Source of the DNA: Rhizobium sp. WSM4643 | GTDB taxonomy: Bacteria > Pseudomonadota > Alphaproteobacteria > Rhizobiales > Rhizobiaceae | Direction of reading: 5' to 3' | Length of the DNA stretch: 64,000 nt | Assembly (NCBI RefSeq): GCF_025152745.1 | Contig: NZ_CP104042.1 | Span: forward strand, 484,968 to 548,967 | Shown here: positions 10,714 through 62,443 of the stretch, in pieces | Layout of the letters: each line of letters opens with the position of its first letter | Numbering within the stretch: position 1 is the first letter of the stretch | Translations under genes and position numbers: made by a program | The notes under the pieces: generated by a model | Database searches by the model: none | The model's input: only the letters and a program-made list of their open reading frames with translations | Told to the model about the DNA's origin: nothing

Positions 10714-10719
10714 TTGCGA

Positions 10720-11138: not shown

Positions 11139-11362
11139 TATGTTCTCCTGAATGGTGTGGGTGATGCCTATCGAGCGCGGTCAACCGTGGGCTGCCGAGC
11201 CTGGACTAGGGATTTCGAATAGGTTGACGGCGTTCGTCCGGATAGTCGCATCGATCCCTTCCGCTTAAGGGCTCTATGCCCCTGCAACTTATTTACGATC
11301 TTCATATAAAGCCGCATGGTGCGGTGTTGAAATCGAACCTTCTGTCTGTTGTTATCCAGCAA

Positions 11363-12256: not shown

Positions 12257-12369
12257 CGTTCCGCCCAACTTATAAAAGACTAGGACCAATCGACATTCAG
12301 GATTGAACGAAGCCGCTTGCGCGGCATGTGGAGTGCGGGATTTGCATGATGCGCTTCTGATTTGAAGGA

Positions 12370-12388
12370 TTGGGCTGTTTTAGCCCAA
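12370..12388. terminator. Hairpin in front of the IS91-associated recombinase
   Basis: TTGGGCT and AGCCCAA form a 7-bp stem with a short T-rich loop, 20 bases before the recombinase start. It could end transcription entering the element or be part of its terminal structure. No long T-run follows, so this is tentative. Confidence 0.4.
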
Positions 12389-12408
12389 CCTTTGAACAGG
12401 AGATGACG

Positions 12409-13269: not shown

Positions 13270-13282
13270 GCATAGCTTCGCC

Positions 13283-42410: not shown

Positions 42411-44591
42411 ATGCTTGATTCCGGAAAGACCTACAAAGCCTTACTGGCTGCCGCAAGAGAGCACCGCCTACTTACCTTCGACGACCTGGCACTCGCGAAC
42501 GAGGTCGATCGGAAAACAACCCGCGGTCAACTCAGGAAACATCTCGGTAAGCTAGCAAAGATCGGCCATGGACTCGGCTGGCCGCTTTTGTCATCAATCG
42601 TGGTGGAACAAAAAGATCTACAGTCCGGCGACTTAGCAGGAAGTGCGCTCAAAGAGTTTCTCACGGTCGCCACAGCCACCGGAGCCGACGTCGGTGATCC
42701 GTCCGATTTTCTCACCAGAGAGCGCGAGAAGGTGTTTCGTTGGGCAGCGACGGCTCCTGCGGAACCGGATTTGGAAAATATGACCGGGCCTCGTTTCGTC
42801 GAGTACTTCGGACCGGTCCTGGACGCACTGCGAAATCTCGGTGGATCCGGCACCCCCGAGCAGGTCACTGAGTGGATCAGGGCGAACGTAGACATCCCCG
42901 CAAACGAATGGAATGCCAAAACAAAAGGCGGAAATCCTCAGGTTCAGGACAAGATCAACTGGGCTCGCTTTTATCTCCTCAAGGCCGGGCTCATAGGTTC
43001 GTCGAAGCGCGGCGTCTGGTCGCTCACCGAAGAGGGCAAAGAGACCGTTCTTTCTTACGAGCAGGCGCTCCTTCTTTTTCGGGAGATCAAGCGCCGGTTT
43101 CAGATCGCACGAGAGGACGAGGACGCCATTCCGGAAGATGCCACGTCCGATCCGTTCGACGAGCCGGCACGCCGCTTCTGGTTCGTCGGCGCGTCGTGGG
43201 ACGACGGCGGCGATCAGTGCGATCGGTTCGTTCGTGACGGTATTTGGGAAAACGGCTACGAGGACCGTTACCTCGACGACGTCAGAAAAATGCGCAAGGG
43301 CGACCTCATCGCCATCAAGTCGACGTTCACGAGAAAGCTCGGTCTTCCCTTCGACAACAAGGGAAACGCCGTCTCCTGCATGCGGATCAAAGCGATTGGC
43401 ACCATCACCGCGAATCCCGGGAACGGACGAACCATTGAGGTCAGTTGGCATAAACTCAGCCCGCCGCGAGATTGGTTCTTCTATACATATCGGACCACCG
43501 TGCTCGAAGCAGATCGCGACGACGACCTCGCGCGCCGCCTGATACTCTTCACCTTCGCGGGCGAGCCACAGGACTATCGCTATTGGACCACTGAAGTTCC
43601 CTATTTTGCAAAAAAGTACGGCGAACCCGACGTCCCCGTGCCGGCAGACGGGCTGTACGAGGATTTGCCAGAGACCGAACGCGAGGTCGCCAATCCGTCC
43701 TACACGATCGAGAACATCGTCCGTGACGGATGCTTCATCCCGGACGTCCTCATTTATCGGCTGCTCGAACGCGTTAGATCGAAGAAGAATGTGGTAATAC
43801 AGGGACCACCTGGAACGGGAAAGACATGGCTCGCCAAACGGCTCGCTTATGCGCTCATCGGATCCAGTGACCCGAAGCTAACCAGGCAGCGTCTACGAAT
43901 AATTCAATTCCATCCATCCTATTCTTACGAGGATTTCGTATGCGGATGGCGGCCGACAGGCAACGGCACTCTTGCGCTTCTGGATGGAGTCTTCCTCCAG
44001 ATCGTCGAGGCGGCGAAGGCGCAACCCGATCGTCCGTTCGTCCTAGTGATCGAAGAGATAAATCGCGGCAACCCGGCCCAGATCTTCGGCGAGGTCTTGA
44101 CCCTTCTCGAAGTTTCGAAGCGGAATCGTGACGATGCCATGGAGCTCGCCTATCACACGGAGAAGCACGAAAAGGTCTACGTCCCCAAGAACGTCCACGT
44201 CATCGGTACGATGAATATCGCCGACCGATCGCTAGCCCTCGTCGACCTGGCACTCAGGCGACGCTTCGCTTTCGTGGACCTCGAACCCCAATTCAACGAG
44301 CATTGGAGGCGATGGTGCGTAGAACGGTGTGGTTTCCCGATCGAAGCCATTGATCTGATGCGTGCAAGGATCGCCGCCCTCAACGAAGAGATCGAAGGCG
44401 ACCGTGCTCTCGGCTCTCAGTTCCGAATCGGCCACAGCTACTTGACGCCCGCGGCCGATATGCCCGTGAGCGATCCCGTGGAATGGTTTCGGGACGTGGT
44501 GAGAACGGAGATAGTTCCACTGCTTGAGGAATATTGGTTCGATGCACCGGAAAAAGCATCTGCGGCTGCCCGTAACCTCTTGGCCGGGTAA
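42411..44591 (+). CDS. mcrB: McrB-type AAA+ GTPase of a modified-DNA restriction system, with EVE-like reader
   Basis: 726 residues. The N-terminus (1-65) and the region 130-215 (winged-helix Mrr_N-like, RFYLLKAGLIGSSKRGVWSL) precede an EVE-like domain at about 252-400 (FWFVGASWDDGGDQCDRFV, RKMRKGDLIAIKST), the probable reader of modified bases. The motor has Walker A QGPPGTGKTWLAK (about 464), Walker B VLVIEEINRGNPAQIFGE (about 544) and the McrB-type TMNIADRS (about 600). It would translocate on DNA with McrC as nuclease. mcrC follows 5 bases later. Confidence 0.92.
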   Translation: MLDSGKTYKALLAAAREHRLLTFDDLALANEVDRKTTRGQLRKHLGKLAKIGHGLGWPLLSSIVVEQKDLQSGDLAGSALKEFLTVATATGADVGDPSDFLTREREKVFRWAATAPAEPDLENMTGPRFVEYFGPVLDALRNLGGSGTPEQVTEWIRANVDIPANEWNAKTKGGNPQVQDKINWARFYLLKAGLIGSSKRGVWSLTEEGKETVLSYEQALLLFREIKRRFQIAREDEDAIPEDATSDPFDEPARRFWFVGASWDDGGDQCDRFVRDGIWENGYEDRYLDDVRKMRKGDLIAIKSTFTRKLGLPFDNKGNAVSCMRIKAIGTITANPGNGRTIEVSWHKLSPPRDWFFYTYRTTVLEADRDDDLARRLILFTFAGEPQDYRYWTTEVPYFAKKYGEPDVPVPADGLYEDLPETEREVANPSYTIENIVRDGCFIPDVLIYRLLERVRSKKNVVIQGPPGTGKTWLAKRLAYALIGSSDPKLTRQRLRIIQFHPSYSYEDFVCGWRPTGNGTLALLDGVFLQIVEAAKAQPDRPFVLVIEEINRGNPAQIFGEVLTLLEVSKRNRDDAMELAYHTEKHEKVYVPKNVHVIGTMNIADRSLALVDLALRRRFAFVDLEPQFNEHWRRWCVERCGFPIEAIDLMRARIAALNEEIEGDRALGSQFRIGHSYLTPAADMPVSDPVEWFRDVVRTEIVPLLEEYWFDAPEKASAAARNLLAG

Positions 44592-44596
44592 CAAAG

Positions 44597-45688
44597 ATGG
44601 GAACGCCTGCGACGATACGCACCATAGGGTCGATTCCTGTCCGCAACATCTGGCTTCTGTTCCTCTACGCATCCAACCTCGCGCAGTTCTTCGGTCGACA
44701 TTCGGTCCAAGTGGAATCCTCTCCGGATTTCGAGGACCTCGTCGCGCGCCTGCTGTGCTTCGCGGTCGAATTGCGACTTCGGCGCAACCTCAGTCGTGGT
44801 TATCGGCGGATCGAAGCGGTGCTTCCGCGCGTACGAGGCAGAATCGATTTGCTTCAAACCCATGCCCGCGGCCTCCTGGAGCGTGGTGCCGTCGCATGCC
44901 GCCTGGATGAATTCACATTCGACATTGCCCGCAATCGTCTCGCGCGAGCCGCTCTCGGCCGGCTAGCGAAAAGCCTGGACGATCGAGAACTTGCCGGCCG
45001 TTGCCGGCGCCTCGAAGGCGACCTGCTGCGGCTCGGTGTCGCGGGCCCCACGCCTTCACGACATGAAATCGCCGCCGACCGCGTCGGACGGCATGATCAT
45101 GACGACCTGCTAATGATCAGCCTCTCGCGCATCGTCTTCGATCTGGTTCTTCCGACCGAGGACGAAGGAGGGACGGTCGTGACAGACGTGGAGAAGAAAG
45201 CGATCCTCGTCAGGCGCCTTTTCGAGAAGGCGGTGGGAAATTTCTGTCGCTCCGAACTTTCTCCGCTGGGTTGGCGGGTCAGGCAAGCGAAGCGATTGGA
45301 TTGGCAATTCGATGATGCCAGCGATAGGATCCACTCGATTTTTCCGGCGATGGAAGTCGACATTGAGCTGGAAAGAGCATCGGAACGCTTGATCGTCGAC
45401 ACCAAGTTCACGTCTGTCTTTGCTCGCTCGCAATATCGGGAAGAGGTCCTGAAGAGTGCCCATATCTATCAACTCTATGCCTATCTTAGAAGCCAGGAAC
45501 GATCGGACGACCCACTGTCGCTCACGTCCGCCGGAATGTTACTCTATCCCACGGTCGGCGTAGAACTCGACCAGACCGCAACCATCCAAGGTCATACGAT
45601 TCGGTTCGTCACCGTAGATTTGACCGTTCCTGCGCTCCAGATCGTCGAAAGACTCCGCTCGATCCTGGTAGGTAGGGGACGTGAATAG
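44597..45688 (+). CDS. mcrC: McrC-type nuclease subunit
   Basis: The 363-residue protein has the N-terminal McrC beta-rich region (TIRTIGSIPVRNIWLLFLYA, GYRRIEAVLPRVRGRIDLLQ) and a C-terminal PD-(D/E)XK nuclease: Asp in MEVDIELERA and the Asp-Thr-Lys pair in RLIVDTKFTSV (about 253-270), then YREEVLKSAHIYQLYAYLRS. It works with McrB to cut DNA carrying modified cytosine. It ends 12 bases from the end of the convergent giant helicase gene. Confidence 0.92.
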   Translation: MGTPATIRTIGSIPVRNIWLLFLYASNLAQFFGRHSVQVESSPDFEDLVARLLCFAVELRLRRNLSRGYRRIEAVLPRVRGRIDLLQTHARGLLERGAVACRLDEFTFDIARNRLARAALGRLAKSLDDRELAGRCRRLEGDLLRLGVAGPTPSRHEIAADRVGRHDHDDLLMISLSRIVFDLVLPTEDEGGTVVTDVEKKAILVRRLFEKAVGNFCRSELSPLGWRVRQAKRLDWQFDDASDRIHSIFPAMEVDIELERASERLIVDTKFTSVFARSQYREEVLKSAHIYQLYAYLRSQERSDDPLSLTSAGMLLYPTVGVELDQTATIQGHTIRFVTVDLTVPALQIVERLRSILVGRGRE

Positions 45689-45700
45689 TCCGGCGCTCGC

Positions 45701-48700
45701 TCACGTCATTCCGAGCGGCCTGATCTTGGCGAACTCGACGGCCTTGACCGGCCTTCTCGCGGCATCGAAGGAATCGATGAAGTAAATCGCCGTCCCCTGG
45801 AGCTCCCCCAATACGTCCACGAGGCGACCTTCGCCGAGCGAAGCTTCGTCGAGACGCCAAAAGGGATGGACCATTAAGTAGGCGACGGACGATCCGCTCC
45901 GGTCTTCCCTCAGTACCGGCAGTCCCATATGCCCTACGCTGGATACCGAACGGGCGACCGGGTTGAGACGCTGCAACTCCGTGGCACTACGCTCTGCAAT
46001 CGTGCGCCAGTCCGCAATTTCGCGCGCGCTCCAGTCCCCGTCGAGACCGGCGGCCCAATCGACATCGATCATGCCACGCAGGAAACCCAGCCCGAGCCGC
46101 CAGTCGAGTAACCCGTGATAGCCACGATTGTTGTATCGCTGCATGCAGCGATAGCAGGAACGCGTGCAGGTCTGCGGATGATCGCTCTCGAAATATGGCT
46201 GGACGAGCCGGTCCGCATCCTCGACCATCGACCGGATGAGCCGGTACGCCAGCGGCGAACCGTCGACGACATCGGCCAGTCTTCGCGAAAATCCGGCTCC
46301 GTTGACGAGGCTGTCGGCGATCTGCAGTAGCGGCAAGCCGTCCCGCAAGCGTGGCTCGAGCGTTTCGAATTCCTCCGGACCGATATCCATCTCGAGCGCC
46401 GCGCGCTGCATCAGCAGCTGCGTCGCCGATACGGCGGCGGCCCGCATGCTGGTCTTGTGGACGCTCCGTCCTCCCAGGCGGTCGAAGGCGAGGCCCCTCG
46501 GGATCGATCGCATGCCCAGGTAGAAGGAGTCCGTGCGCTTCCGCGACATCAACCTGACGGCTTCAGGACTGGAGGCGATTCCCAACGAGTCGTGCGCCGC
46601 GGACCAGTTGAGCGTATCCGCAAGCGTGTCGGGAACCACGTATTGGTGCCGGAGGTTCTTGGCCCAAAGCGGCGGCGACCGCCGCATCATGACGTTCTTC
46701 TGAACGGCTTCTTGGATGACAAAGCCCTGGGCTTCTCCGTCGATGTCGATTGGCCCGTCGTTCTTCCGGATGACGGATGCCCTATCGCCCGTCGCGAACA
46801 GTAGGTTGGTCTCCGGCCATTCGACCGTCGTCAGATCCTCGATCTCCGACGAGGTCTCCCGTCGCGTCGGGCGGGCGAGAATCTCGTCTTCGTCTAAAGG
46901 CGACGGACGGAAGGACGTACGAAAGCCGGACGGCATGTAGTACGTGACGTAATCGGATGCCGAGATCGACGCGCCGCAGTCGGCGCAAGCCCCCTCCTCG
47001 ACTGCCTCGGCCGCCCTCGTGATGGTTGCGCCACATATCTGGCAGACGGCGATCGCCGCGCGGTCGGCGAACCACTGCGGACTCGGCGACCCCTTCAGGA
47101 ACGTCGCGGTCTGCTCCCGCTCGTTTTTTCGGACCGCGATAGGCGCCGTGAACCCGATCGCCGTGTGCTTGCGCTTGTCCCTGATCAGACTCTGGCCCGG
47201 GGCGAACTCATAGATCGCGATGTCGAGATCACGATCGACCGTATCCCATTCCGAAGAGCCCGTTTCGGCATCCGCGGGACCGAGGATCAGGTCGCGGACC
47301 CTCGTCGGCATCCCGTACATGGGCAACAACCCCGCTTCGGCCAGAAATCCCGCGAGGTTGCCTACCGCCGAGGCGCCGCTCTCACGCAACGCCTCTATTT
47401 CGGACAACAGGCTGTCCGTATGCAGACGGGAAAGTAGTTCTTCGGAGCGTCCCGGCCGTCCGGCGCCCAATGCTCTAGCCACTCGATCCCGCACGGAGCG
47501 GGAGCGATCCAGAGCGTCGCGCAAACGGTCGGGCCACTCCGATCCTACTGCGAAATAGGTGTCGCAGGAAACGAATTCGCCATGGACGTCCGAAGGAGTG
47601 TCGTCACCCGGATAATTCTTCCCGCTTTCGTCCCTGAGGAGTTCGAAGGCGGCGATCAACCAGAACTTTCGCAGCAGACGGAGTGGAATCGCCAAATGGT
47701 CCGACGTCAGGAAAGGAGGTGGCGGAGCGTCGCCGGTGATCGCTTGCGGGTGCTGGAAATAGTGCAGGTCGTGACTGCGACTGCGGCAGAGCGTCGCCAC
47801 CATTGAAAAGGCCTGTCCACGCCGCCCCGCCCGTCCGACGCGCTGCTGGTAGTTGAAGCGCTGCGGCGGCATGTTGGCCTGATACACGGCCTGGAGAGAA
47901 CCGATGTCGATGCCGACCTCCATGGTCGTCGTTACCGACAGCATATCTATCTCTTTCGCCTTACGGGACAATTCGTCGCCCCCTCCGGAAACACCGTCGA
48001 CGAAAATTCCCCTGAAACGGCGCAGCCGGTCCGCCGGCGATCCTGTCTGGCCGGTCAGCTCCTCACATCGGAGCCGGAAGCCGCCGGCGCCGCCGCCCTC
48101 GGCGTCGGTCATGCCGCGAGCGAGAAAGTGCCGTTCCCGAAGCTCACGAACCCGCCCGGTCGGTTCGCTGGGCAGCGGGCCCGTGCATCGCGTGCAGATC
48201 TCGGCTCCGCGGTGGAGGTGGACGCGCGTGCAGTTCTCGCAGGCGAAGTACCCGTGGTCGTCGTCCACCAGACGGACATAGAGCCGCTCGGGCTCTATGA
48301 AGCCGTTCTGGTGCCCTTGGTCGTGGAGAGCTGACAGCACGCGATCAAGCTCGCCCGTCCGGCCGCCGGGAGCCACAGCCTCGGCGAAGCCTCTGACGCG
48401 TCGGTTCGGGATGGCATGAGCGTCCGGCCACTCCTTGCGTTGGTCGTTCCTCTCGACCCAACGGTTGCCTCGAACGCGATAGGAATCGGCGAAAACCCTC
48501 AGATAGGCGTCCATTCGGTCGTGATCGGCGCCCCCAGTGGCATACAGCGACGGATAACCCAGCCCCGTCTCTTCCAAAGCGAAATACGTCTTGGAGAACA
48601 ACACGTCGTCGACGAGCGGTTTCATGTCGGCCACGATCTCGTTCCGCGCCACCTGGAATGCCAGCGCGTCCGTACCCACCCGCCAGTCGACCGCTCCCGC

Positions 48701-51589
48701 GTTCAAAGAGAACAGTCGGTCCCAATCCACACCTTGTCTGCCCGGCCCCTCTCCGATCCGCGCGATCCCGACGTCGTCCGTGGGATGCATTCCCAACGCC
48801 ACCATGCTCGCCAAGAGCGGCTTTGCCCTTCCCTCCACAACTTGGCCCGGGGTGACGGCGGTCTCGACGATCGAGCGCAACGCCACCCGTCCCGGCTCCC
48901 CGGCTTCCTGTCTCAAGGCCGCCACTCGCGCAGACAGCGTCGCGACCGCGGCCACGTCGTTCCGCTGCCAAGCCTCGTTCATGAGAGCGGTCGCTTCTTC
49001 AATCAATCGAGGTGCCGCTTCGGCAAAGTCCTTCACGCTTTGCACTAGGAGCTGACGCCGACCATCCTGATGATGCCGTCGCTCGATGTCGAGCGCGGCC
49101 CGTGAGGCATCCTGTCGACTGTCGGAGAATACGACCGCCTTCGCGCTGTCCCCGCTCGCGTGCAATATCGAGAAGAGTTCCGTCGCAACGAGCTGAGAGC
49201 TCTTGGCGAAGCCCGTGCGGAAGCTTCGTATGGGGGATTGCCGGAACCTTCTGCTTCTACCACTATAGTCTATCCCGCAGGCCGGGCAGCATTTCGGGCC
49301 CGCGGTCCCTGGCGTCCTGAGCGCGCCTCCGGCGTTCGGCGGCAAGCAGAAGATTCGCCCACGCACGGCGTGGGGTCGTTCGTCCCAGCCTCCCAAGACC
49401 ATGCCGTTGCGCGTATCGAGCGTCGCTTCCATCCACCGCTCGTCGTCCTGGTCGCCATGCTGGGGCCCGTGCCGACTCGGCCAGAAGACCGCGAAGTCCT
49501 GATAGCTCAGATCCTCGTAATTTCCACTCGCCCCGATCTCCGGGAGAGTCTCCAGCTCTGGAGAAGACGGCAGCAACTCTACCTGGATGCCATTGCTTCG
49601 CTCGGCCTCTCCACGTCGTCCTCCGACGAACTCCTCGCCACAGGATTCGCAATAGACCAGTTCGAATACGCGTTCGCTGACGGCCCCGTCGGACCCGTAT
49701 GTCGTGCCGCGCTCAATGGTGACGCCTTCGAAGCCGACGCTCTCACCGACGACGACGGGTGTGGCGAACAGGCCTTCGATACTCCTGATGAAGACGTGCT
49801 CGCGAAAGCTCGTCGTGCGATCGTCGATGTGGATTCCGAGGAGATCGTTGACGCGGTCGCCGAGCCCTCGCAGGATCACTAGCCCTCGCAAGGCAAGATG
49901 TGTCTCGCCCGAACTCGTACCGAAGACCCGTTCGGCAATGGTGTCGATCGCGGTTGCCCGCAGCCTGCCTTCGCTCTCCGATTGGCACGCGCTCGTCAGG
50001 ACCGAGGCCGCCGCCTCTATCGCCTGTCTGACCGCGAGCAAGGGGTCGGATGCCGGCGTCGACACGAGGGCACGCCCACAGGCGGTCACGGCGTCGGTCA
50101 ACCCCGGCCGCCAAGTGTCGAGCCGACCGACCAGCTGTCCGGCCGGCGACAAGAGCCGGATGAGGTCGACGAAGGGTCGCGTCCGCAGCGGGAACGGCAT
50201 TTCGCTGGCCGGGATCTCCTGTGTCCCCGTAACAATGGCCGACCCCCAGCTCGAGGGATCCGTCGCGCCGGCATCGCCCGCTCCTTTGCTCGTCCCGAAC
50301 GGGCCGAAGAAATCGTGAAGATACTTGAGGCTTTTCGATCCTTCCTCTCCATCCAATGGCAGGGACGCGCTCGACGCCAATATCCTGAGCTTATGGCTGT
50401 GTTCCGGTCGATCCAGCCCAAGGCGTTGCACGAGGGCCCGGATTAGGCCGGAAACCTCGGTTCCGGCAGACCCGCGAACGAGATGGAGCTCGTCCAGAAC
50501 CAGGAAGAAGTAAGCACCTTCTTCCGTTTCTAGCCACCGTCGTGTCTCATCGAAGATTCGCGCTTCGATCTCCCGAGACAACATGGTGCCGAGCATTGAG
50601 ACGTTGGTGACGAGCACGTCGGGCGGTGTCTCGTGCATGTCCCATCGAGCGACGAGCTCGTTAGCGTCGACGGACGGGAAAAGATAGCGTGTCGGATCGT
50701 CATCTGGGTGAGCCGCATCGTGGTGCCGTGCGAGCGATTGATCGTCCTCGTACCGAGTCATCGCTGCACGCACGCGGGCTACGCGCGCTTCCGCCCTTTC
50801 CCTCTCGATCCGAACGTCCCCGCGTCTCGGATGCACGAGATTGCCGGCTACCGGCGTCGCGCTCGTGTAACGGCCGAAGAATATCCGATTTCCTCGGAAG
50901 CGTTCGTCCATAACCGCCGTGGCCTCGGGGGAGGTCAGCGTCTTTCTCAAACGACTGAGCTGATCCTCGACAAGCGCGTTCATCGGATAGAGGATTAGTG
51001 CCCGGACGGCCTTGGGCCGAGCGGCGTGCTCCCCGTCGCGGTGATAGCGAAAATTCTTTGCGGTATCCCGCCACCAAGATGAAGCGAGATAGCCTGGCGA
51101 CGGTGCGGGCCATTGCGTGGCCTCCTCGGCGATCGTCGCCAGGATGGGCAGCATGAAGGCCTCCGTCTTACCGGAGCCGGTCCCGGACGTGACGATACCG
51201 GGCGTGCCGGACATCACGCCTCGTTTCAGCATTTCCATCTGATGCGTGTAGGGTTTGCGTGATCCTGCTCTTCGAATTTCTCCGTCAGCGGCAACTCCAG
51301 GAAACAGACCGGAAAGGGCGAGCTCAGCGAACGCGATGCGCCCCTCACGCGACATGCCCCCGATCGGATTGCGTTCGCCCGCGAGATCGACCAGCTCGTC
51401 GAGGCCCCATTCCGCAGAACGATACCGCGGCACCGGCTCGAGGAACGGCGCCGTCGCGAGGTTGCCCGGCTGGCGCAGCAGTGCGCGACGCCTATCCGCA
51501 AGCTCCGTCCGCCTCACTCGAAAAGCTGTATCGAGATACGAGATGTAAAGGTCTCTCATGCGCTCGAAGGCGCCAATCGGGTCGAGCAT
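45701..51589 (-). CDS. druE: Giant DEAD-box helicase with DUF1998-like C-terminus, Druantia DruE-like
   Basis: 1962 residues from the ATG at 51589 (GAGGAGG upstream; a TTG one codon earlier is possible). Motif I is TSGTGSGKTEAF (about 135-146), the DEAD-type motif II is VLDELHLVRG (about 370), and motif VI is YQQRVGRAGRRG (about 1253). Four CxxC clusters lie between and after the helicase lobes (VYCESCGEEF, FACENCTRVH, VCQICGATI). The C-terminal cluster CTRSCYRCMQRYNNRGYHG (about 1813) is the DUF1998/MrfA type. Size and architecture match DruE, the effector shared by Druantia systems. It is the last gene of the operon. Confidence 0.82.
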   Translation of the reverse strand: MLDPIGAFERMRDLYISYLDTAFRVRRTELADRRRALLRQPGNLATAPFLEPVPRYRSAEWGLDELVDLAGERNPIGGMSREGRIAFAELALSGLFPGVAADGEIRRAGSRKPYTHQMEMLKRGVMSGTPGIVTSGTGSGKTEAFMLPILATIAEEATQWPAPSPGYLASSWWRDTAKNFRYHRDGEHAARPKAVRALILYPMNALVEDQLSRLRKTLTSPEATAVMDERFRGNRIFFGRYTSATPVAGNLVHPRRGDVRIERERAEARVARVRAAMTRYEDDQSLARHHDAAHPDDDPTRYLFPSVDANELVARWDMHETPPDVLVTNVSMLGTMLSREIEARIFDETRRWLETEEGAYFFLVLDELHLVRGSAGTEVSGLIRALVQRLGLDRPEHSHKLRILASSASLPLDGEEGSKSLKYLHDFFGPFGTSKGAGDAGATDPSSWGSAIVTGTQEIPASEMPFPLRTRPFVDLIRLLSPAGQLVGRLDTWRPGLTDAVTACGRALVSTPASDPLLAVRQAIEAAASVLTSACQSESEGRLRATAIDTIAERVFGTSSGETHLALRGLVILRGLGDRVNDLLGIHIDDRTTSFREHVFIRSIEGLFATPVVVGESVGFEGVTIERGTTYGSDGAVSERVFELVYCESCGEEFVGGRRGEAERSNGIQVELLPSSPELETLPEIGASGNYEDLSYQDFAVFWPSRHGPQHGDQDDERWMEATLDTRNGMVLGGWDERPHAVRGRIFCLPPNAGGALRTPGTAGPKCCPACGIDYSGRSRRFRQSPIRSFRTGFAKSSQLVATELFSILHASGDSAKAVVFSDSRQDASRAALDIERRHHQDGRRQLLVQSVKDFAEAAPRLIEEATALMNEAWQRNDVAAVATLSARVAALRQEAGEPGRVALRSIVETAVTPGQVVEGRAKPLLASMVALGMHPTDDVGIARIGEGPGRQGVDWDRLFSLNAGAVDWRVGTDALAFQVARNEIVADMKPLVDDVLFSKTYFALEETGLGYPSLYATGGADHDRMDAYLRVFADSYRVRGNRWVERNDQRKEWPDAHAIPNRRVRGFAEAVAPGGRTGELDRVLSALHDQGHQNGFIEPERLYVRLVDDDHGYFACENCTRVHLHRGAEICTRCTGPLPSEPTGRVRELRERHFLARGMTDAEGGGAGGFRLRCEELTGQTGSPADRLRRFRGIFVDGVSGGGDELSRKAKEIDMLSVTTTMEVGIDIGSLQAVYQANMPPQRFNYQQRVGRAGRRGQAFSMVATLCRSRSHDLHYFQHPQAITGDAPPPPFLTSDHLAIPLRLLRKFWLIAAFELLRDESGKNYPGDDTPSDVHGEFVSCDTYFAVGSEWPDRLRDALDRSRSVRDRVARALGAGRPGRSEELLSRLHTDSLLSEIEALRESGASAVGNLAGFLAEAGLLPMYGMPTRVRDLILGPADAETGSSEWDTVDRDLDIAIYEFAPGQSLIRDKRKHTAIGFTAPIAVRKNEREQTATFLKGSPSPQWFADRAAIAVCQICGATITRAAEAVEEGACADCGASISASDYVTYYMPSGFRTSFRPSPLDEDEILARPTRRETSSEIEDLTTVEWPETNLLFATGDRASVIRKNDGPIDIDGEAQGFVIQEAVQKNVMMRRSPPLWAKNLRHQYVVPDTLADTLNWSAAHDSLGIASSPEAVRLMSRKRTDSFYLGMRSIPRGLAFDRLGGRSVHKTSMRAAAVSATQLLMQRAALEMDIGPEEFETLEPRLRDGLPLLQIADSLVNGAGFSRRLADVVDGSPLAYRLIRSMVEDADRLVQPYFESDHPQTCTRSCYRCMQRYNNRGYHGLLDWRLGLGFLRGMIDVDWAAGLDGDWSAREIADWRTIAERSATELQRLNPVARSVSSVGHMGLPVLREDRSGSSVAYLMVHPFWRLDEASLGEGRLVDVLGELQGTAIYFIDSFDAARRPVKAVEFAKIRPLGMT

Positions 51590-51601
51590 CAAGTATCCTC
51601 C

Positions 51602-53656: not shown

Positions 53657-53658
53657 CG

Positions 53659-56214
53659 TCACACCCCCCCTGCAATGCTGTCCCAGCTCGGTCGTCGGGT
53701 ACCGCGACGACGCGCCAACGCCATGGCCGACCCGGTCGCCGGTCCATCTTCTCCCGGGCCGGCGAACCCTTCCCCGATGAAGCGCCTCAACCAGACCGTC
53801 ATCGACCGATCGAGATGATAGGCGTAGTCCCATGTCCCATCGCTGGCCATCACCGGTCCCGATGATCGCATCGTTCGGAACCGCGCCTGCCGAGCGATCG
53901 GACTGGGCAGATATCCGGATTTGCCGATGCGCCTCAACCTTTCGCCGTTCTGCGCGAAGAGAGCAATCTTGTTGAGTCGATGCCCTTCGAGGATCGCGGC
54001 GACTCGTGATGCGGTCTTTTTGAGGATCTCCGAGCCTCTTCTCAGCACGTAGAGATCGGCCTCGTCACCCCTGTCCCTCACCCAACGCTCGAGCGAAACC
54101 CGAGCGCTCTCGTCGTGCCGATCGACGAAGAGTCCGAGTCCATAAGACCAGGAGCTCGCATGCCGTCGGCCGTCCGGCGTTCTGGGATCTTCGATCCATT
54201 GGCGGATCGGGTCGGGTGCCGGCAGGGCAGACAGCGGCAAGACCGGCCATTCGAGCGTTTCGGCAAGGCGGGCCACGAACATTCCGTCGATGCGGATGCT
54301 TTCGGGTGACCAGGGTGCCCCTCCGTAACGTTTCAGCTCCCCGCCTGTCACCCCCAGCGCCTTCGACAAGGCCTTTTGAACGATGCAAGGGGTGGCGCCG
54401 TCGACGACGGCTTCGCTCTCAGACAGTAAGACCAAGCTGGGACGACGGCACGTCCACACGCGACCCCGCCAAGTCTGGGAAACGTATGGATCGAGCCAAC
54501 CGGCCTCCTGATAAGCCCGCAGCACGTCCCACACGAGATCGTGGGTCGGCACGACCCGTTCAATGAGAGCGATCAGTTCACCTTCGCGCCATCCGGTGCC
54601 CGCTTTCGAAAAGATCGCCTCGCCGAGATCGTCCATCGCGGTTCGGTCGGCGGCGACGTCGTCTTCGATCATCGCCCCAATTTGCAATGGGTGGCTGGGC
54701 GCTTCGTCCGACATCTCGCGATCCTGCCGCCATCCGGACTTCGAAGTGAAATCCGAATATGTGCTAGGTTCGGGCGCGCTGCCCTCCAGCACGCAGGTGA
54801 GATCCATTCTGTTGTCGCCCTCGGCCAGACCGATGCGCCAGACACCGTCCGTAGTCTCTTCGCAACGTAGGAGCCCGTTTGGCTCGACCCGCAACTCCCC
54901 CGGCCCTTCGCGCAGTCGCGTCACCGAGATCGCTGAGGAGTGGACGCCGCTCACCTCCGGCAAAAAAGACGGGCGCCCGAGATAGACATTGCGTTTCAGA
55001 CTCACCCCACCTGTCAATCTCGGACCGACGAGCTCTTCCGGAACGAACCCGTTCCTGGAGAGGTGACGCAGGACTTCGATGCCGTCGATCCGCCCGGATA
55101 TATCCCAATCGCGGTCTACCTCGGTCCAGGTCGTCCTTAGCCTCCAGTCTCGCGGCGCGGATCCTCGCCTTGCGACGACCATGCAGAAATCGTCTGTACC
55201 CGGTCCGCCCTCGTCACAGACCCAGGATCCCGCCCGCCGGACGAAGACTGCGTAGCCTTCGCCGATTCGACGAGCCACGTGCCCACTCTTATTTCCTGCG
55301 ACAGCCTGAAGAACGTCACTCCAAGCCCCCCCTGCGAAGTGACCGCCGCCGATTGAGCTCAATCGGCTCTGGCGCGCCGTTTTCAAAGAAAACTCCGCAA
55401 CGTCCTGGTCGAAACCCGCGAACCGCAACTCGATCCAGGCAGCCGCGTCGCCTCTTTCGCCGTTTTCCGCCGATATCTGTCGCTCGATACCGGATACCAG
55501 AGCCCAGAAGCGATGGCCGGCAAGCATCGTCTGTCCGGACGACAAACGTTCGGAAAAGTCCAGCAGCGCGTCCATAATGGCACTTGGTATGTCGAATCGT
55601 CGGTGGGTCCGCAGCAGTTCTTCGACCAGCCTCCTCGGAGAACCTCGCACCGACTGGGAAATGGTCTTCAGTATCGCGGCGAATTGTGCCTTGTCACGCC
55701 ATGCCGGAAAGGCCATCTTCACGGCATACCCGATCAGTCTCATGGCGCCTGGATCGGGGAGAACGACTTGTCGCACGGGACGCCCGGCCGATCTCTGCCG
55801 ATCACTCCAATTCGCGAGCCGCCGCCAAAGCCTGTTCACGCCGCCGACAGAGGTCAATTCGGCAATTCCGAACGCCTGTCCCATGCGGACACGGAAGTTA
55901 TGCGTATCGAGGTCCGTGCCGGCGACGTCGTTGACCGCAATCACGCATGTCAGGACGAGATATCGGAAGAAAGCAGGCTCCTCCTCGGCAGTATCGGAAC
56001 TCGAGCCGCCGCTCAAATAATGACCGACCAAGGCGATATCGAAGCTGTCGAGAAAGGAGCGGAGAGCGATCTCGGGGTCGAGGTCCGTGATGCCCGAGGC
56101 GATCGCGAGCTCCGACGACGTCGCGTCCAGATACGTCATCGGGCTTCCGCCGTTCGGACCGTCCGACGAAAGATAATGGCTCACCAGCCTGGCATTCCAT
56201 TGTTTACCGGACAT
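53659..56214 (-). CDS. Large protein of unknown fold, Druantia DruF-position
   Basis: The likely start is the ATG at 56214 (MSGKQWNARLVSHYLSSDGP), giving 851 residues. A TTG at 56265 is an alternative. No catalytic motif or transmembrane segment is visible. The N-terminal 200 residues are helical (YLVLTCVIAVNDVAGTDLDT), the middle is beta-rich, and the C-terminus is basic and Arg/Ser-rich. It ends two bases before the next gene and starts 149 bases after the GHKL gene. It is assigned to a Druantia-like set by position and size only. Confidence 0.65.
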   Translation of the reverse strand: MSGKQWNARLVSHYLSSDGPNGGSPMTYLDATSSELAIASGITDLDPEIALRSFLDSFDIALVGHYLSGGSSSDTAEEEPAFFRYLVLTCVIAVNDVAGTDLDTHNFRVRMGQAFGIAELTSVGGVNRLWRRLANWSDRQRSAGRPVRQVVLPDPGAMRLIGYAVKMAFPAWRDKAQFAAILKTISQSVRGSPRRLVEELLRTHRRFDIPSAIMDALLDFSERLSSGQTMLAGHRFWALVSGIERQISAENGERGDAAAWIELRFAGFDQDVAEFSLKTARQSRLSSIGGGHFAGGAWSDVLQAVAGNKSGHVARRIGEGYAVFVRRAGSWVCDEGGPGTDDFCMVVARRGSAPRDWRLRTTWTEVDRDWDISGRIDGIEVLRHLSRNGFVPEELVGPRLTGGVSLKRNVYLGRPSFLPEVSGVHSSAISVTRLREGPGELRVEPNGLLRCEETTDGVWRIGLAEGDNRMDLTCVLEGSAPEPSTYSDFTSKSGWRQDREMSDEAPSHPLQIGAMIEDDVAADRTAMDDLGEAIFSKAGTGWREGELIALIERVVPTHDLVWDVLRAYQEAGWLDPYVSQTWRGRVWTCRRPSLVLLSESEAVVDGATPCIVQKALSKALGVTGGELKRYGGAPWSPESIRIDGMFVARLAETLEWPVLPLSALPAPDPIRQWIEDPRTPDGRRHASSWSYGLGLFVDRHDESARVSLERWVRDRGDEADLYVLRRGSEILKKTASRVAAILEGHRLNKIALFAQNGERLRRIGKSGYLPSPIARQARFRTMRSSGPVMASDGTWDYAYHLDRSMTVWLRRFIGEGFAGPGEDGPATGSAMALARRRGTRRPSWDSIAGGV

Positions 56215-56363
56215 CGTGAAGATGGAAGCATTCCTCGCAAAAGACACGGCGCGCGCCCTACCCAAGCGCGAATCACAGCTTAGGAGAGGCTCACTCCAGC
56301 AACCACAAATATATTCGCTCTGCCCGGCGGGAAATTGCGACGAGCTTGTGACTTAGGTGAAAC

Positions 56364-58304
56364 CTACAGACTCGCGTCGATGGCATCGAGAATGGCGTAG
56401 ATCCGGCTGGCCGTCTTCGAAGCCTCCAAATACTCGCCATAGGCTCGTCGGGCGTTCCCGATCAATTGCTGGTATGTCATGACGCGAGCGTTGGCTTGCT
56501 CGAGAATGCTACGCGATTTCTCACGACCCTGCGGTTCGGACCAGTCCTTGAGATCTTTTCCGACGAGGCAGATGATCTCGTACGCTTCGGCTGATCGACC
56601 AGTTCCTGCCAAGAGCTGATCCATCTTTCTCTGATATTTGCGCACCTGCGCGAAGAGTTCGTCCGTGTCGCAGACCCTGCCCGCGCGCTTGAGCTCGATG
56701 ATGAGGTGCTCCCCGCCCGACTTCCTGTACTGGATGTCGACGCGCCCGATGGTCTCCATGTATTCGCCGACGAACTCTTCGTCGTTCAGAACGGCCTTCT
56801 TCACCTCCTTCTCCATCACCGGATCGATAGCCGCGCGATCCCACGACGGATCCAAGAGCCAGAGGTGCTGGAAGAGGAATTTTTGAAGGATCTTTTCGAG
56901 GCTATTCTCTTCGGTGAGGCCCTCGAAACTATTTATGAGATCGAGACGCCCCTTCGAGATCTCGTAGTAGAGTTGCGCCTCGAGTTCGTCGTGGTCCTCG
57001 AAGGCTTTCAGAAAGCCGGAAAAATCGCTGTCGGAAAGACTGTCCAGTCGACTGAGGCTGTCACGAAGCTTCAGCTTTTCGAACGCCAATACGCTGAACT
57101 TGAAGAGAGGCTTCTTGTCGCTCGGGTCGAGCTTCAGAGTATTGATCTTCCCGAACATCTGCGTCGCCTTATTGCGCTGGTCGGCGCCCAGCGTCTTGAA
57201 CCAGGCATCGACTTCCGGAACCTTCAAGGCTTCCTTGGATCCCTCCTTGTTTCTCAGGTCCGTCCACTTGTTCTGAATGTGCTTCAGTTCGGCTTGTATC
57301 TCGGCTCGAAGCCTCACGACACGATCGTCGTCCTCGATCAGCGCCTGACGGTTGCTGGTGGCGACATCTTCCTTCTCGTCGTCGTCCAGCCAATCCGCAT
57401 GGATCTCGCCGACCACATAGGAGGCGTAGAGGCCGTCCTCGCCGAAGAATTGCAACGTCTTCTCTTGAGCGACCCGGCCTCTGATCATGATCTGAATGTC
57501 ATTCAGATTGTCGCCATCCTCGCTGGCGAGATCGCCGGCCGATTTGACCGTACCTATCCAGCCAGAGAACGTCGCTTCGCGCGGGAAGACCTGCGTCGCC
57601 GAAGTGGACTTGCTGATCTCCTCTCCGAGATCTCCGTAAGTCCATATGAACTCGACCTTCTTATAATACTCCCTGTCCTCCGACGTGATGGGCACGCCGT
57701 TGACGTGGACATCGAAGGACTTCTCGTACTTCACCTGTCCGATGGAGGAAAAACGCCTGGCCAACCGTCGCCGAAGTGGGCCCGGCGCATTGTGCGTCGC
57801 CTTCCGAATGTCTCGGATCTCGATCCTCGTCCCTTGCGAGATCGAAATCTCTGCGAGCGGAACCACCGCTGGAACATATTCCTTTTCACCCGCGGCGATT
57901 GATGCCTGGATTCCAGGCAGACTCAGGATCAAGCCCGACCGCTCCCCGCCCCTGCAACTATGAACCTCGATCGTGTCGGCGATCGAGAAGAGCGAGAGCT
58001 TGCCTATCCCCTTCCTTCCCAGCACCGGGCGCCCATGCGGTGTCTTCGCTTCTCCGTTTTTTCGTCTCTGGTACCCGACGGTCAGGAATTTCCGGTTGAT
58101 GTCGTCGACGGACATGCCGTGTCCATCGTCCTGGATGATGATCTTGCCGGTCGCGACATCAATGCCGACACTCTCGGCATCTGCATCCCAGGCGTTCGCG
58201 ACCGCCTCGGAGATCACGGCGGGCACGCTGCTGTACAACTTGATGCCGAGATGGTTCAGGACATTCAAGTCGATCGTCATTCTGAACGGCGAGTTTTCAG
58301 CCAC
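56364..58304 (-). CDS. GHKL (MORC/MutL-like) ATPase with C-terminal nuclease-like motif
   Basis: The GTG at 58304 is preferred: it overlaps the methyltransferase stop and gives MAENSPFRMTIDLNVLNHLG, the usual family start (646 aa). ATP-site motifs are the N-box SEAVANAWDADAES (Asn38), G1 IIQDDGHGM (59-64) and G2 GRKGIGKLSLFSIAD (96-110). Charged helices follow, and near residue 535 comes IGRVDIQYRKSGGEHLIIEL with Asp and Glu-Leu-Lys-Arg, a PD-(D/E)XK-like site as in DUF4263/Shedu nucleases. MORC-like ATPases of restriction loci act as DNA clamps. Here clamp and nuclease look fused. Confidence 0.82.
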   Translation of the reverse strand: MAENSPFRMTIDLNVLNHLGIKLYSSVPAVISEAVANAWDADAESVGIDVATGKIIIQDDGHGMSVDDINRKFLTVGYQRRKNGEAKTPHGRPVLGRKGIGKLSLFSIADTIEVHSCRGGERSGLILSLPGIQASIAAGEKEYVPAVVPLAEISISQGTRIEIRDIRKATHNAPGPLRRRLARRFSSIGQVKYEKSFDVHVNGVPITSEDREYYKKVEFIWTYGDLGEEISKSTSATQVFPREATFSGWIGTVKSAGDLASEDGDNLNDIQIMIRGRVAQEKTLQFFGEDGLYASYVVGEIHADWLDDDEKEDVATSNRQALIEDDDRVVRLRAEIQAELKHIQNKWTDLRNKEGSKEALKVPEVDAWFKTLGADQRNKATQMFGKINTLKLDPSDKKPLFKFSVLAFEKLKLRDSLSRLDSLSDSDFSGFLKAFEDHDELEAQLYYEISKGRLDLINSFEGLTEENSLEKILQKFLFQHLWLLDPSWDRAAIDPVMEKEVKKAVLNDEEFVGEYMETIGRVDIQYRKSGGEHLIIELKRAGRVCDTDELFAQVRKYQRKMDQLLAGTGRSAEAYEIICLVGKDLKDWSEPQGREKSRSILEQANARVMTYQQLIGNARRAYGEYLEASKTASRIYAILDAIDASL

Positions 58305-59358
58305 GGCCGACGATCTCCGCCGAAATTTCCTTTGCGATGGCCTGAGCGAGCGCAACCGGAACCGCGTTTCCGATCCACTTTCCCACGGTCTTAAAGCCAG
58401 GAAATTTGTCCGCTTCGAAGAAAGCGTAGTCGGCAGGGAACGATTGAAGAATAGCCGCCTCGCGCAACGATATCGCGCGATCCTGCTCGGGATGGCCGAA
58501 GCGGCCGTTACCGAAACCGTAGCACTGCGTGGTCATGGTCGGTGCGGGCTGATCCCATCCCATACGTCCATATACTCCACCGTAACCTTTGCCCGTCTCG
58601 GCAGTATGGCAAGTGGCGACCAAGTCGGCTGGCCAGTCGCGCCAAGTCCCGCCCGGCTTCGACACCCTGATGCGCTCGAGGTTCAAATCCGAGAGCTTGC
58701 TCGCGCGATGCAGAGGATCGTTAGGATCGACTCCACCGGCCGTCAGCCGAGGGAGCCCTGCGATCGCCGCCCTCACCGTCGCGCCGGCCTCCTCGGAAGG
58801 GGCCGATAGCTGAACGACCTTCTTCTTCGATCCGATAACTACCAGCCGCTTTCGACGCTGCGGCACTCCATATTGCGAGCAGTCTACGACCTGGACGGAA
58901 AGCAAGTATCTCGTAGACAGCGCATCCAGAAATTCTTGAAACAGGCTACCGGCCTTGTACTCCAGCAGACCCGCAACGTTCTCCATCGTCACGAAATCGG
59001 CGTCGACCGATGTCGCGATCCTTGCGAAGCTCTTCAGCAGCTCCCAACGGCCGTCTGTCTTGCCTTTTTTGTAGGTGGAGAAAGGCTGACACGGGGCGCA
59101 ACCCACGAGCACCGAGGGCCTTGTCCCGGTGAATCTAGACTTTATCTCGTCGGCAGACAAAGAGCCGACGTCCTTCTTCACGAAACGCGAATCGTTGTTG
59201 GTCTCGAATGCATACCGGCAGCTTTCGTCCACATCATAGCCAGCGCGTATGTCGAACCCGGCGCGTTTGAACCCGTTGCTGATTCCGCCGATTCCGCAGA
59301 AGAGATCCACGACCTCGCCCACCGGCAACAGTGTTGAAGGACCGGAACTACTCGGCAT
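58297..59358 (-). CDS. C5 cytosine-specific DNA methyltransferase
   Basis: The 353-residue protein contains all the C5-methylase motifs: I DLFCGIGGISNGFKRAGF (19-36), IV GCAPCQPFS with the nucleophile Cys90, VI MENVAG, VIII SQYGVPQRRKRL, and X KWIGNAVPVALAQAI. The target-recognition region (about 215-270) is short. It is the first gene of the island's minus-strand operon and overlaps the GHKL gene by 8 bases. In Druantia II a methylase of this type (DruM) belongs to the set. With the divergent vsr it also looks like a restriction-modification pair. Confidence 0.93.
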   Translation of the reverse strand: MPSSSGPSTLLPVGEVVDLFCGIGGISNGFKRAGFDIRAGYDVDESCRYAFETNNDSRFVKKDVGSLSADEIKSRFTGTRPSVLVGCAPCQPFSTYKKGKTDGRWELLKSFARIATSVDADFVTMENVAGLLEYKAGSLFQEFLDALSTRYLLSVQVVDCSQYGVPQRRKRLVVIGSKKKVVQLSAPSEEAGATVRAAIAGLPRLTAGGVDPNDPLHRASKLSDLNLERIRVSKPGGTWRDWPADLVATCHTAETGKGYGGVYGRMGWDQPAPTMTTQCYGFGNGRFGHPEQDRAISLREAAILQSFPADYAFFEADKFPGFKTVGKWIGNAVPVALAQAIAKEISAEIVGRG

Positions 59359-59587
59359 GAGACGTCGTCCCGATTTCGCTTATCTTCGCATAGGGCAAGC
59401 TGCACGACCCCCGGTTGCAGTTTCAGGCTACTTTCTCCGATTTATCAAAAGAAATCAAGCCGCTGAATGGTCCGCCCGTCACTTTTTCTATTTCGCTCGG
59501 GGGTATGCGTTCTGCCGTAAAATCAGCGAGATTTGATGGTCGACTATTCGGATCGCCTCCATATCGGCCAGAGACACGGTAGGATTT
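59359..59587. promoter_or_regulatory. Divergent promoter region between methyltransferase and vsr
   Basis: This 229-base gap separates the divergent starts and must hold promoters in both directions. It is more AT-rich than its flanks (TTTATCAAAAGAAATCAAGC). I cannot fix boxes with confidence. Confidence 0.45.
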
Positions 59588-60061
59588 TTGACAGACGAAA
59601 ACGAAGCTGCTCCGACCGCATTTCGATCCGCCCTGATGGCGCGCGTGGGTCAGAAAAACACGCTGCCCGAAGTAAAGGTCCGAAAGATTCTTCACGGATT
59701 GGGCTATCGATATCGGATACATCGCCGCGACTTGCCCGGCAGTCCGGATATCGTCTTTCCAACTCGCAGGAAGGCTATCTTTGTTCACGGGTGTTTTTGG
59801 CACCGACATGCCGATTGCAGCAAGGCGACATCCCCAAAAACGCGTGTCGAATTCTGGAGAGAAAAGTTCGCGAAGAACGTCGAACGCGACAAGAGGAAGG
59901 AGCGTGAATTGCGCGAACTCGGTTGGGAGGTCGAAACGATATGGGAGTGTGAAACTAAGGACATGGAAGGCCTAGCGCGACGCGTCGTGTTTTGGCTTGG
60001 CTCCCGGTCGCCGGATCAAGCAAAAAAGTATGGAGACGAAGCGAACGTTAAGTCTTCCTAG
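59588..60061 (+). CDS. vsr: Very-short-patch-repair-type endonuclease
   Basis: The 157-residue frame starts at TTG 59588; an ATG at 59636 (MARVGQKNTLPEVKVRKILH) would still cover the domain. HGLGYRYRIHRRDLPGSPDI has the catalytic Asp, and FVHGCFWHRHADCSKATSP has the His/Cys residues that coordinate zinc. Vsr nicks T:G mismatches that arise at deaminated 5-methylcytosine. It is divergent from the cytosine methylase, as in many dcm/vsr loci, though MORC-type systems use Vsr as a restriction nuclease. Confidence 0.93.
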   Translation: MTDENEAAPTAFRSALMARVGQKNTLPEVKVRKILHGLGYRYRIHRRDLPGSPDIVFPTRRKAIFVHGCFWHRHADCSKATSPKTRVEFWREKFAKNVERDKRKERELRELGWEVETIWECETKDMEGLARRVVFWLGSRSPDQAKKYGDEANVKSS

Positions 60062-60096
60062 GCGTCGTTTTGGGATGCCGTCGCGGGTGTTCTGGA

Positions 60097-60963
60097 TCAC
60101 TTGCCGAAAATTCGTTCGTAGAATTCGCGCTGGCTCTCGATGAAAGCGGATTGAATTGGCTCGCTTGCGCGAGCGGTGGCCTCGAATGCGTTGCGGAACT
60201 TTTCTTCATCAATAAGGACGCCGTCGAAGTGCTGTCTCAATGCCTCGGCGCAGAACCAAGTCAAGCTCACCTGATCACTGACTATCCTCGCCACGTGACT
60301 GGACTCCAAGAGCCGCAACTCCTCTTGCGGACGTAAAGCACGATCAGCCATCAGATCCAAGGCTGCACCGTCTGCATGCGCAAGATGGCTGCACATTCCA
60401 TACATGTGCAAAATGCCTTGGAAACCATTCAGGGGCTCGCCCGCGATCAAGCGACCTTCCAGCGATGTGACAATTTCGGAGAACGACCACTTCTGTTCTA
60501 TTCTCTTTCGTTCCGCCTTGTTGCCTGCGATATTCTGGTCGAAAATGCTCTCTTGGGTCAGCGCTTCGAATATATCCGAAGCCACATGCTCTGCATCGGC
60601 TCCTCGAACTACCAACTCGGCCTTGCGTGCTCTCCGACGGTTGCCGATCGAGCCAAGTACGTTCCAAAATTCATTGAGGAGGACGGCCTTTTCCTCCTCC
60701 TCGGCAAGACAGATGAACAAGATCTTAGCAGCCGTCTCGTAAAACGACCGCAAGACAATTTCCGCGTCCCAACAATAACCCCAGGTTAAAAGAAACGTCA
60801 CCGCCTGAGCTCTCGACGAGAGATAAGCGAACAGTGGCCTCAACGTCGAAGTCGCTGCGGGTGTATTCTCGCCATATCGAGAAAAAAGACCGGCGATCTC
60901 ATCGCGGATGACTGCGTTGGCATCCATGCTGGTATCTTGCAAGTGCTGCAATGGAGATATCAT
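60097..60963 (-). CDS. DUF5677 family protein
   Basis: This mainly helical protein has 288 residues (or 276 from the ATG at 60927, MDANAVIRDEIAGLFSRYGE). LTWGYCWDAEIVLRSFYETA and YGMCSHLAHADGAALDLMAD, with conserved-looking His, Glu and Asp, match DUF5677 proteins, which occur near phage-defence loci and have no agreed function. It is convergent with vsr (35-base gap), at the right edge of the island. Confidence 0.7.
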   Translation of the reverse strand: MISPLQHLQDTSMDANAVIRDEIAGLFSRYGENTPAATSTLRPLFAYLSSRAQAVTFLLTWGYCWDAEIVLRSFYETAAKILFICLAEEEEKAVLLNEFWNVLGSIGNRRRARKAELVVRGADAEHVASDIFEALTQESIFDQNIAGNKAERKRIEQKWSFSEIVTSLEGRLIAGEPLNGFQGILHMYGMCSHLAHADGAALDLMADRALRPQEELRLLESSHVARIVSDQVSLTWFCAEALRQHFDGVLIDEEKFRNAFEATARASEPIQSAFIESQREFYERIFGK

Positions 60964-61123
60964 ACAGTTGTCCGCTCGGGCTTTCCACGTCTTTCCTGGG
61001 ACCGTAATTCAGCGACCTGCCTTTGTCTTCAAGACCCTGACCTATCGTGAGATCCGCTGTTGTTTTGTCGTGTCCATCACGTTCGGCAGAATGGTAGTTG
61101 GTTCATATAACGGGACTCCGCTG
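60964..61123. other. Short intergenic spacer
   Basis: No gene or repeat is recognised in this spacer between the defence island and the RHE_PE00001/integrase pair. Confidence 0.5.
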
Positions 61124-62254: not shown

Positions 62255-62443
62255 GGTAAATGATTTCTTACACGAACGCTATATGGATATTGAGGTTCGC
62301 CACATGGTACGGATGCAGGCTGAGGGTATAACCATCGATAAGTACCTCTTATCGATGGTAGATTGATTTCGAGGTCCAAATCAGCAAGAGTCGGCGCAAA
62401 TCACGGTCTCAGAGGCCGCCGAAACCGTCTTTCTGGAGCGTCC

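Follow-up and report, generated by a model that had tools for sequence, protein, structure and literature searches.

A Druantia type II-like defense cluster in Rhizobium whose methylase position is probably filled by a type II restriction-modification pair

The window analyzed here, a 64,000-nucleotide (nt) stretch of contig NZ_CP104042.1 from Rhizobium sp. WSM4643 (genome of 6.44 Mb in 4 contigs), contains a defense cluster at positions 42411 to 60061. This cluster is probably a Druantia type II system in which a complete type II restriction-modification (R-M) pair occupies the place of the methylase, with the single methylase providing the self-mark for both. We regard it as a modular composite in which the R-M pair stands in for druM, while a mechanistic fusion of the parts is only hypothetical. 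The target sequence, the use of the methylase by Druantia, and any activity against phage are predictions from sequence. An earlier note on this DNA had described a minus-strand operon in the order methylase, GHKL ATPase, two large unknown proteins (DruF and DruG below), and a DUF1998-type helicase (DruE below), accompanied by a divergent vsr and a convergent mcrBC. An open reading frame (ORF) check placed all eight genes at the positions and on the strands described, including the GHKL gene between the methylase and DruF genes. We consider the eight genes real because all products but DruG match protein families strongly, and because all eight recur in a Neorhizobium xiangyangii locus (L001) at ratios of nonsynonymous to synonymous divergence (dN/dS) of 0.04 to 0.27.

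Identity and organization of the cluster

The proposed Druantia type II identity is borne out by the profile scores of the helicase and of DruF. DruE (45701 to 51589, minus strand) is a YprA-family superfamily 2 (SF2) helicase with a weak MrfA-type zinc module. It matches the PADLOC profile PDLC00014 (DruE2) with 2205 bits over profile positions 1 to 1921 of 1928, carries DEAD (45.6 bits), Helicase_C (30.9 bits), and MZB (19.9 bits, below its cut-off) domains, and is close to a solved structure (PDB chain 9wae_A, 1618.8 bits). DruF (53659 to 56214, minus strand) matches the PADLOC profile PDLC00019 (DruF2) with 331.5 bits. The comparison with Druantia models that the earlier note had proposed thus scored DruE2, DruF2, and DruM2, and DruG (51602 to 53656, minus strand) is its weak part, matching PDLC00025 (DruG2) with 23.8 bits over residues 274 to 369 only. 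This protein is 34% identical to the DruG of S. meliloti, which itself scores 60.4 bits for DruG2, and its position in the operon is also consistent with the assignment. No P-loop pattern was found in DruG, searches of solved structures with DruF and DruG returned only noise, and a scan of viral contigs with a DruF alignment gave no match.

The cluster resembles Druantia type II (druM-druF-druG-druE, alias type IV CoCoNuT) in carrying a C5 methylase, DruF2, DruG, and DruE2 in order with vsr nearby. It differs in that a restriction enzyme gene lies between the methylase and druF and that the methylase belongs to an enzyme-paired clade; a methylase of 616 to 673 residues is present in eight of the nine other loci from our family survey. 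Published papers are cited here for the portions available to us: Druantia types II and IV are covered in PMC8565338, the methyltransferase of type II is noted in PMC10273834, Druantia III is treated in PMC13192584 and PMC13316683, and type II Druantia is reported to encode an McrB-like protein that is inactivated and carries a coiled coil (PMC12458937). Among titles and abstract openings in the literature, we found no description of a Druantia II operon that contains a restriction enzyme.

Membership in DISARM (drmA, drmB, drmMII) was rejected, as the helicase scores 2205 bits for DruE2 versus 28.7 for DrmA and no DrmA or DrmB match is present in the cassette. DISARM likewise combines a YprA-family helicase with a methylase self-mark, and GHKL R-M pairs also occur near it, but its helicase and zinc module are two genes and it has neither DruF nor DruG.

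The gene boundaries support the claim of a single operon in part. The GHKL ORF extends from 56364 to 58355 on the minus strand, and the 8-base overlap with the methylase holds if translation begins at the GTG at 58304. The DruF ORF spans 53659 to 56265, with ATG 56214 as the probable start because 1-nt indels relative to L001 fall immediately upstream. DruF, DruG, and DruE are tightly packed, with gaps of 2 nt and then of 9 or 12 nt depending on the choice of start; the DruE ORF spans 45701 to 51592, and the predicted length of 1962 residues is recovered when counted from ATG 51589. The convergent mcrC and DruE stops are 12 bases apart, as described earlier. What speaks against one operon is a noncoding spacer of 149 nt (56215 to 56363) that parts the GHKL gene from DruF and is also kept in the L001 alignment. 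A promoter and terminator scan of 56100 to 59700 yielded matches at chance level only.

The restriction enzyme and its methylase

The GHKL gene (56364 to 58304, minus strand) encodes a paraMORC3-like GHKL-ATPase/PD-(D/E)xK protein that scores 778.6 bits, against a cut-off of 550, for the NCBIfam BbrUII/HgiDII restriction enzyme family NF050001. We aligned 24 sequences: the window protein, 17 of the 120 database matches listed, and 6 proteins from plasmid or genome loci. In all 24, the ATPase motifs are invariant, as are residues E470, D523, and K539 in the C-terminal part, and the nuclease core R.D...H..(E/D).K is likewise universal, with DxK instead of ExK in one sequence. A search of solved structures with this protein gave no match at E 0.01. 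As expected for the family, a methylase gene is adjacent, both by the 8-base overlap (from the GTG start) and by the clade of its product. By family, the GHKL gene product is a BbrUII/HgiDII-type type II restriction enzyme, with predicted cleavage at GTCGAC. BbrUII/HgiDII-type R-M systems share with this locus the overlapping methylase and GHKL/PD-(D/E)xK genes in one operon with Vsr alongside; here, however, DruF, DruG, and DruE (DruFGE) follow the pair, which in viral loci occurs without Druantia genes.

Iyer et al. (2008) define paraMORC3 by a GHKL module, an S5 domain, and a C-terminal E-D-ExK nuclease (PMC2292703), and our protein fits the published description, as distinct from a published sequence, in its GHKL module and its nuclease. 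The neighborhoods are also alike in containing a cytosine methylase, Vsr, and an SF2 helicase. The MORC-operon helicases named there are Rad25-like, SWI2/SNF2, and a third SF2 type, however, and the available portion of that paper mentions neither a YprA/DUF1998 helicase nor Druantia genes.

The methylase (58297 to 59358, minus strand) is a C5-cytosine methylase in the druM position (PF00145, 185.8 bits). Among PADLOC profiles it scores 234.8 bits for DruM2, which places a DruM-type C5 methylase in the operon, although the scores for MTase_II (282.6) and DrmMII (236.4) are higher. In the methylase tree it falls in a clade of 10 with 100/100 support, 8 members of which come from GHKL-enzyme loci; the other 2 come from Druantia loci that lack the enzyme. 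Of the 19 methylases from such enzyme-free Druantia loci, the remaining 17 fall in other clades. Compared with the methylase of the window, 14 similar methylases (7 belonging to the tree clade) reach 48 to 63% identity in the recognition region and 39 to 58% in the catalytic N-terminal part. The conservation of the recognition region suggests one common target, which is most likely GTCGAC, the site on which M.HgiDII was characterized (PMC5867850). Within the window, GTCGAC is not avoided (41 observed versus 45 expected). A close relative of this methylase is found on a Celeribacter plasmid (L126, 7034 to 10451), where the GHKL partner is interrupted by an IS1380 transposase.

Distribution of the arrangement

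The complete order of five genes is known from a single cassette, which two organisms share; in other loci, the association is rare and near chance level. N. xiangyangii contig NZ_JAJAWH010000034 carries all eight genes in the same order with 94% DNA identity over 16.3 kb, its McrB being partial where the locus ends. The neighborhood survey suggested by the earlier note recovered the order there and in no other locus. That note had also held that the arrangement would be chance adjacency if GHKL homologs never co-occurred with the helicase and its two partners elsewhere. In L001 they do co-occur with all three, and on a Rubrobacter marinus plasmid (L064) a GHKL enzyme accompanies the helicase and a split DruF. 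The Rubrobacter locus contains vsr, a methylase, a DruF split over two genes, and a DruE2 helicase (1917 bits). A GHKL enzyme 41% identical to that of the window follows on the far side of DruE, and a profile search recognized no DruG. Within positions 9490 to 14377 of this locus, we also observed that a PD-(D/E)xK gene separates DruE from the GHKL gene and that the GHKL gene is followed by an Mrr-type enzyme, near a tyrosine recombinase.

We pooled 26 DruE2 loci from several surveys, which constitute a nonrandom sample: the window; L001; eight plasmids (L064, L067, L068, L090 to L093, and L124); G167, G203, G327, G224 (a 10-kb contig), and one G211 locus from the order survey; nine family-survey genomes; and G727 and G1381 from the phylum survey. 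Of these loci, 21 have a detected DruF; the other five (G327, G224, G211, G727, and G1381) may represent another Druantia type. The pool leaves out weaker DruE matches in G364, G045, and a second G211 locus (none of these three with a GHKL gene), as well as G1438, G510, G656 (a DruF fragment at a contig end), and plasmid matches H53 to H60.

The individual surveys agree that the enzyme seldom meets these genes. Among 397 genomes of the order, 6 contain DruE2 above 1500 bits and 2 the GHKL enzyme above its cut-off, with both present only in the window's genome. The family survey detected DruF in 10 of 394 genomes, none of the other nine with the enzyme nearby, and the class survey in 2 of 385, one being the window's genome and the other a fragment. 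In the phylum survey, DruE2 (E 1e-80) was found in 5 of 398 genomes; two besides that of the window exceed 1500 bits, both without the enzyme nearby. Viral contigs containing the enzyme and its relatives (the best 80 of 90 stretches, giving 79 loci in 58 clusters at 90%, many of them extending under 10 kb to one side, and 29 scoring below 550 bits on the GHKL profile built here) have a C5 methylase within 1.5 kb in 76 of 79 loci, DrmA in 1, and Druantia genes in none. As a rule, then, the "one merged system" of the earlier note fails, given these viral loci and the 23 of 26 DruE2 loci that lack the enzyme.

Other modules also enter this position. S. meliloti pSymA carries DUF262 (GmrSD_N) and HEPN_MAE_28990 genes between DruM and DruF (L067, 11520 to 13290), and a pair of the same kind sits beside the DruM of Roseomonas mucosa (L068). 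These two loci indicate that partner swapping at the DruM position recurs, and Druantia II may acquire entire restriction-like modules repeatedly.

Competing explanations

Several observations weigh against the composite that we favor. The enzyme is present in only 3 of the 26 DruE2 loci (the window, L001, and Rubrobacter), two being close copies, and when Druantia plasmid records were searched whole, a search confined to plasmids, it exceeded its cut-off in 1 of 7, again Rubrobacter. There, the enzyme lies at the other end, DruF is split, DruG is not recognizable, and the methylase is of another type, with 34% identity to that of the window in the recognition region. Outside the cassette of the window and L001, this is the single co-occurrence in 24 loci, with approximately 0.06 expected by chance if the enzyme is as frequent as in the rest of the order (1 of 396 genomes); at this expectation, and with Rubrobacter belonging to another phylum, the association is not firmly above chance. 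The 149-nt spacer permits separate expression of the R-M and Druantia halves. The M.HgiDII-type assignment was made without the sequence of M.HgiDII itself in the comparison, and some long-branch joins in the methylase tree may be false, the Deinococcus and Rubrobacter branches being long. Finally, we found no demonstration in the available portions of the literature that Druantia II needs DruM methylation.

Alternatively, the two halves could be mere neighbors: a selfish type II R-M pair would have landed in a defense hot spot and displaced druM, with the pair and DruFGE acting independently and DruFGE having no need of this methylase. We consider this somewhat unlikely. In its favor, the enzyme usually occurs with its methylase alone, as in the viral loci, and the G+C content differs between the R-M side (methylase, 0.59; GHKL, 0.57; with vsr at 0.54 and McrBC at 0.575) and DruF (0.62), DruG (0.60), and DruE (0.635); the spacer and the lone co-occurrence point the same way. 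Against it, the block including the spacer is kept in a second organism with a common synonymous divergence (dS): between the window and L001, the methylase, GHKL, DruF, DruG, and DruE genes range from 0.15 to 0.24, compared with 0.09 for McrBC (McrB in part) and 0.91 for Vsr. The dS is uneven along DruE, which indicates some recombination. Furthermore, two Druantia II loci that lack the enzyme have methylases of this clade, so DruFGE seem to accept such a methylase.

A third possibility, which we judge quite improbable, is that the Druantia complex uses the GHKL enzyme as its nuclease: cuts at unmethylated sites would give DNA ends for the loading and unwinding activity of DruE, and the enzyme would replace a nuclease that type II DruE has reportedly lost. 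Type II DruE is indeed described with an inactivated Vsr-like nuclease domain (PMC12458937), and the DrmAB complex of DISARM is activated by 5' overhangs, whereas methylated DNA lowers its ATPase activity (PMC9142583). In L066, L087, and L088, genes of the related DISARM system have a GHKL enzyme in their vicinity, and in L145 one lies directly upstream of a drmA-like gene; the Rubrobacter PD-(D/E)xK gene between DruE and the GHKL gene fits such an arrangement. That 23 of 26 DruE2 loci manage without the enzyme argues against this explanation. So does the length of the overhang, as an HgiDII-type cut would leave only 4 nt. DrmAB binds overhangs shorter than 7 nt only minimally (PMC9142583).

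Regarding the DISARM-associated enzymes, the haloarchaeal plasmids L087 and L088 carry a GHKL R-M pair with drmB and drmA approximately 9 to 12 kb away. In viral contig IMGVR_UViG_3300043178_000066 (L145, 9917 to 14173), a GHKL restriction enzyme lies directly upstream of a DrmA-type helicase, and no C5 methylase was detected by profile in the 10 kb upstream.

It is very improbable that the GHKL gene encodes a MORC-like DNA compactor in place of a nuclease, as the "MORC-type" label of the earlier note had implied: the protein is a GHKL ATPase and Iyer et al. place MORCs in R-M neighborhoods (PMC2292703), but the S5 motif GhXhhpXXRhl, as printed there and searched as a pattern without a positive-control sequence, is absent from all 24 sequences, all of which have the nuclease core, and the score for the curated restriction enzyme family is well above its cut-off.

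Proposed mechanism

In the composite that we favor, the methylase of the M.HgiDII-type clade would methylate a cytosine in a fixed short host site, most likely GTCGAC. Unmethylated copies of that site would be cut by the GHKL/PD-(D/E)xK enzyme, with its ATPase module serving to clamp or remodel the DNA. DruE with DruF and DruG would mount a second, helicase-based attack on invading DNA, with DruF and DruG as a faster-evolving layer of recognition or activation. One methylase would thereby provide the self-mark for the R-M enzyme and DruFGE alike. We infer that DruFGE read this mark because only one methylase was seen in the cassette and its clade occurs in other Druantia II loci. Vsr may repair T:G mismatches arising from 5-methylcytosine deamination, and McrBC may restrict incoming DNA bearing foreign methylation.

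The dN/dS values between the window and L001 are 0.037 for GHKL, 0.076 for the methylase, 0.082 for McrB, 0.106 for DruE, 0.125 for Vsr, 0.137 for McrC, 0.169 for DruG, and 0.265 for DruF, the highest in the cassette. For this one genome pair, the values are consistent with recognition proteins that change faster than the conserved, sequence-specific R-M pair to which they are joined.

A closer integration, in which the GHKL enzyme is an integral effector, one mark gates both activities, and cleavage of unmarked DNA feeds DruE, appears doubtful to us. If true, the locus would be a hybrid of sequence-specific restriction and helicase-based defense and a distinct Druantia subtype. The role of DruM in Druantia II is unexplained in the portions of the literature that we met, and this locus makes the question testable, as the self-mark gains a candidate sequence, GTCGAC, and would be genetically separable from the helicase arm. 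More broadly, the locus shows that druM can be exchanged: methylases from several unrelated lineages take its place, in some cases together with a restriction partner.

Vsr, McrBC, and the insertion site

The identities given earlier to Vsr and McrBC hold. Vsr (59588 to 60061, plus strand, divergent) scores 140.4 bits for TIGR00632 against a cut-off of 97.85. McrB (42411 to 44591, plus strand) is a GTPase subunit with AAA_5 and Mrr_N domains above their cut-offs and 260 bits for PRK11331, under its cut-off of 637; McrC (44597 to 45688, plus strand), the nuclease subunit, scores 350.8 bits for NF007277 (cut-off, 338) and 74.2 bits for PF10117. Vsr had been read as a mark of the GHKL-methylase layout, but it is not specific, being present in 23 of 26 DruE2 loci, compared with 3 for McrC (McrBC counts are based on the McrC profile and the family-survey loci). 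As a type IV restriction system, mcrBC lies convergent beside DruE in the window, L001, and G894, yet it is a separate system on the opposite strand. McrBC next to a YprA-type cassette is noted in PMC12458937, and McrBC associations are described in PMC11090510.

The window's Vsr is 80% identical to its Neorhizobium counterpart, and the vsr allele was probably exchanged, since its dS of 0.91 is far above the 0.09 to 0.24 of the other cassette genes. The stretch from 59968 to 61124 has no DNA match in L001.

Beyond vsr lie a gene for an RHE_PE00001-type protein (DUF1612 and HTH_13; 61124 to 62254, minus strand), with homologs or same-named genes near other Druantia II loci, and a tyrosine recombinase gene (62363 to 63592, plus strand; PF00589, 52.6 bits). 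Both genes flank the L001 cassette with 76 to 78% DNA identity (recombinase, 76%). In G934, they are 80% and 85% identical, respectively, and flank a Druantia II operon with a longer methylase and no GHKL gene. An integrase gene and an RHE_PE00001 gene also adjoin the Druantia II loci on A. pusense and S. medicae plasmids. This looks like a single insertion hot spot or carrier within which the druM part was exchanged, and a repeat search revealed no convincing repeats bounding the cassette.

Two further genes adjoin the cluster. A DUF5677 protein is encoded at 60097 to 60963, between vsr and the RHE_PE00001 gene. On the other side, between an IS4/5-type transposase (37866 to 38699) and mcrBC, a gene at 38888 to 40711 encodes a 607-residue protein with five matches to the DUF4379 treble-clef zinc finger, a helix-turn-helix, and a weak nuclease-like stretch below the cut-off.

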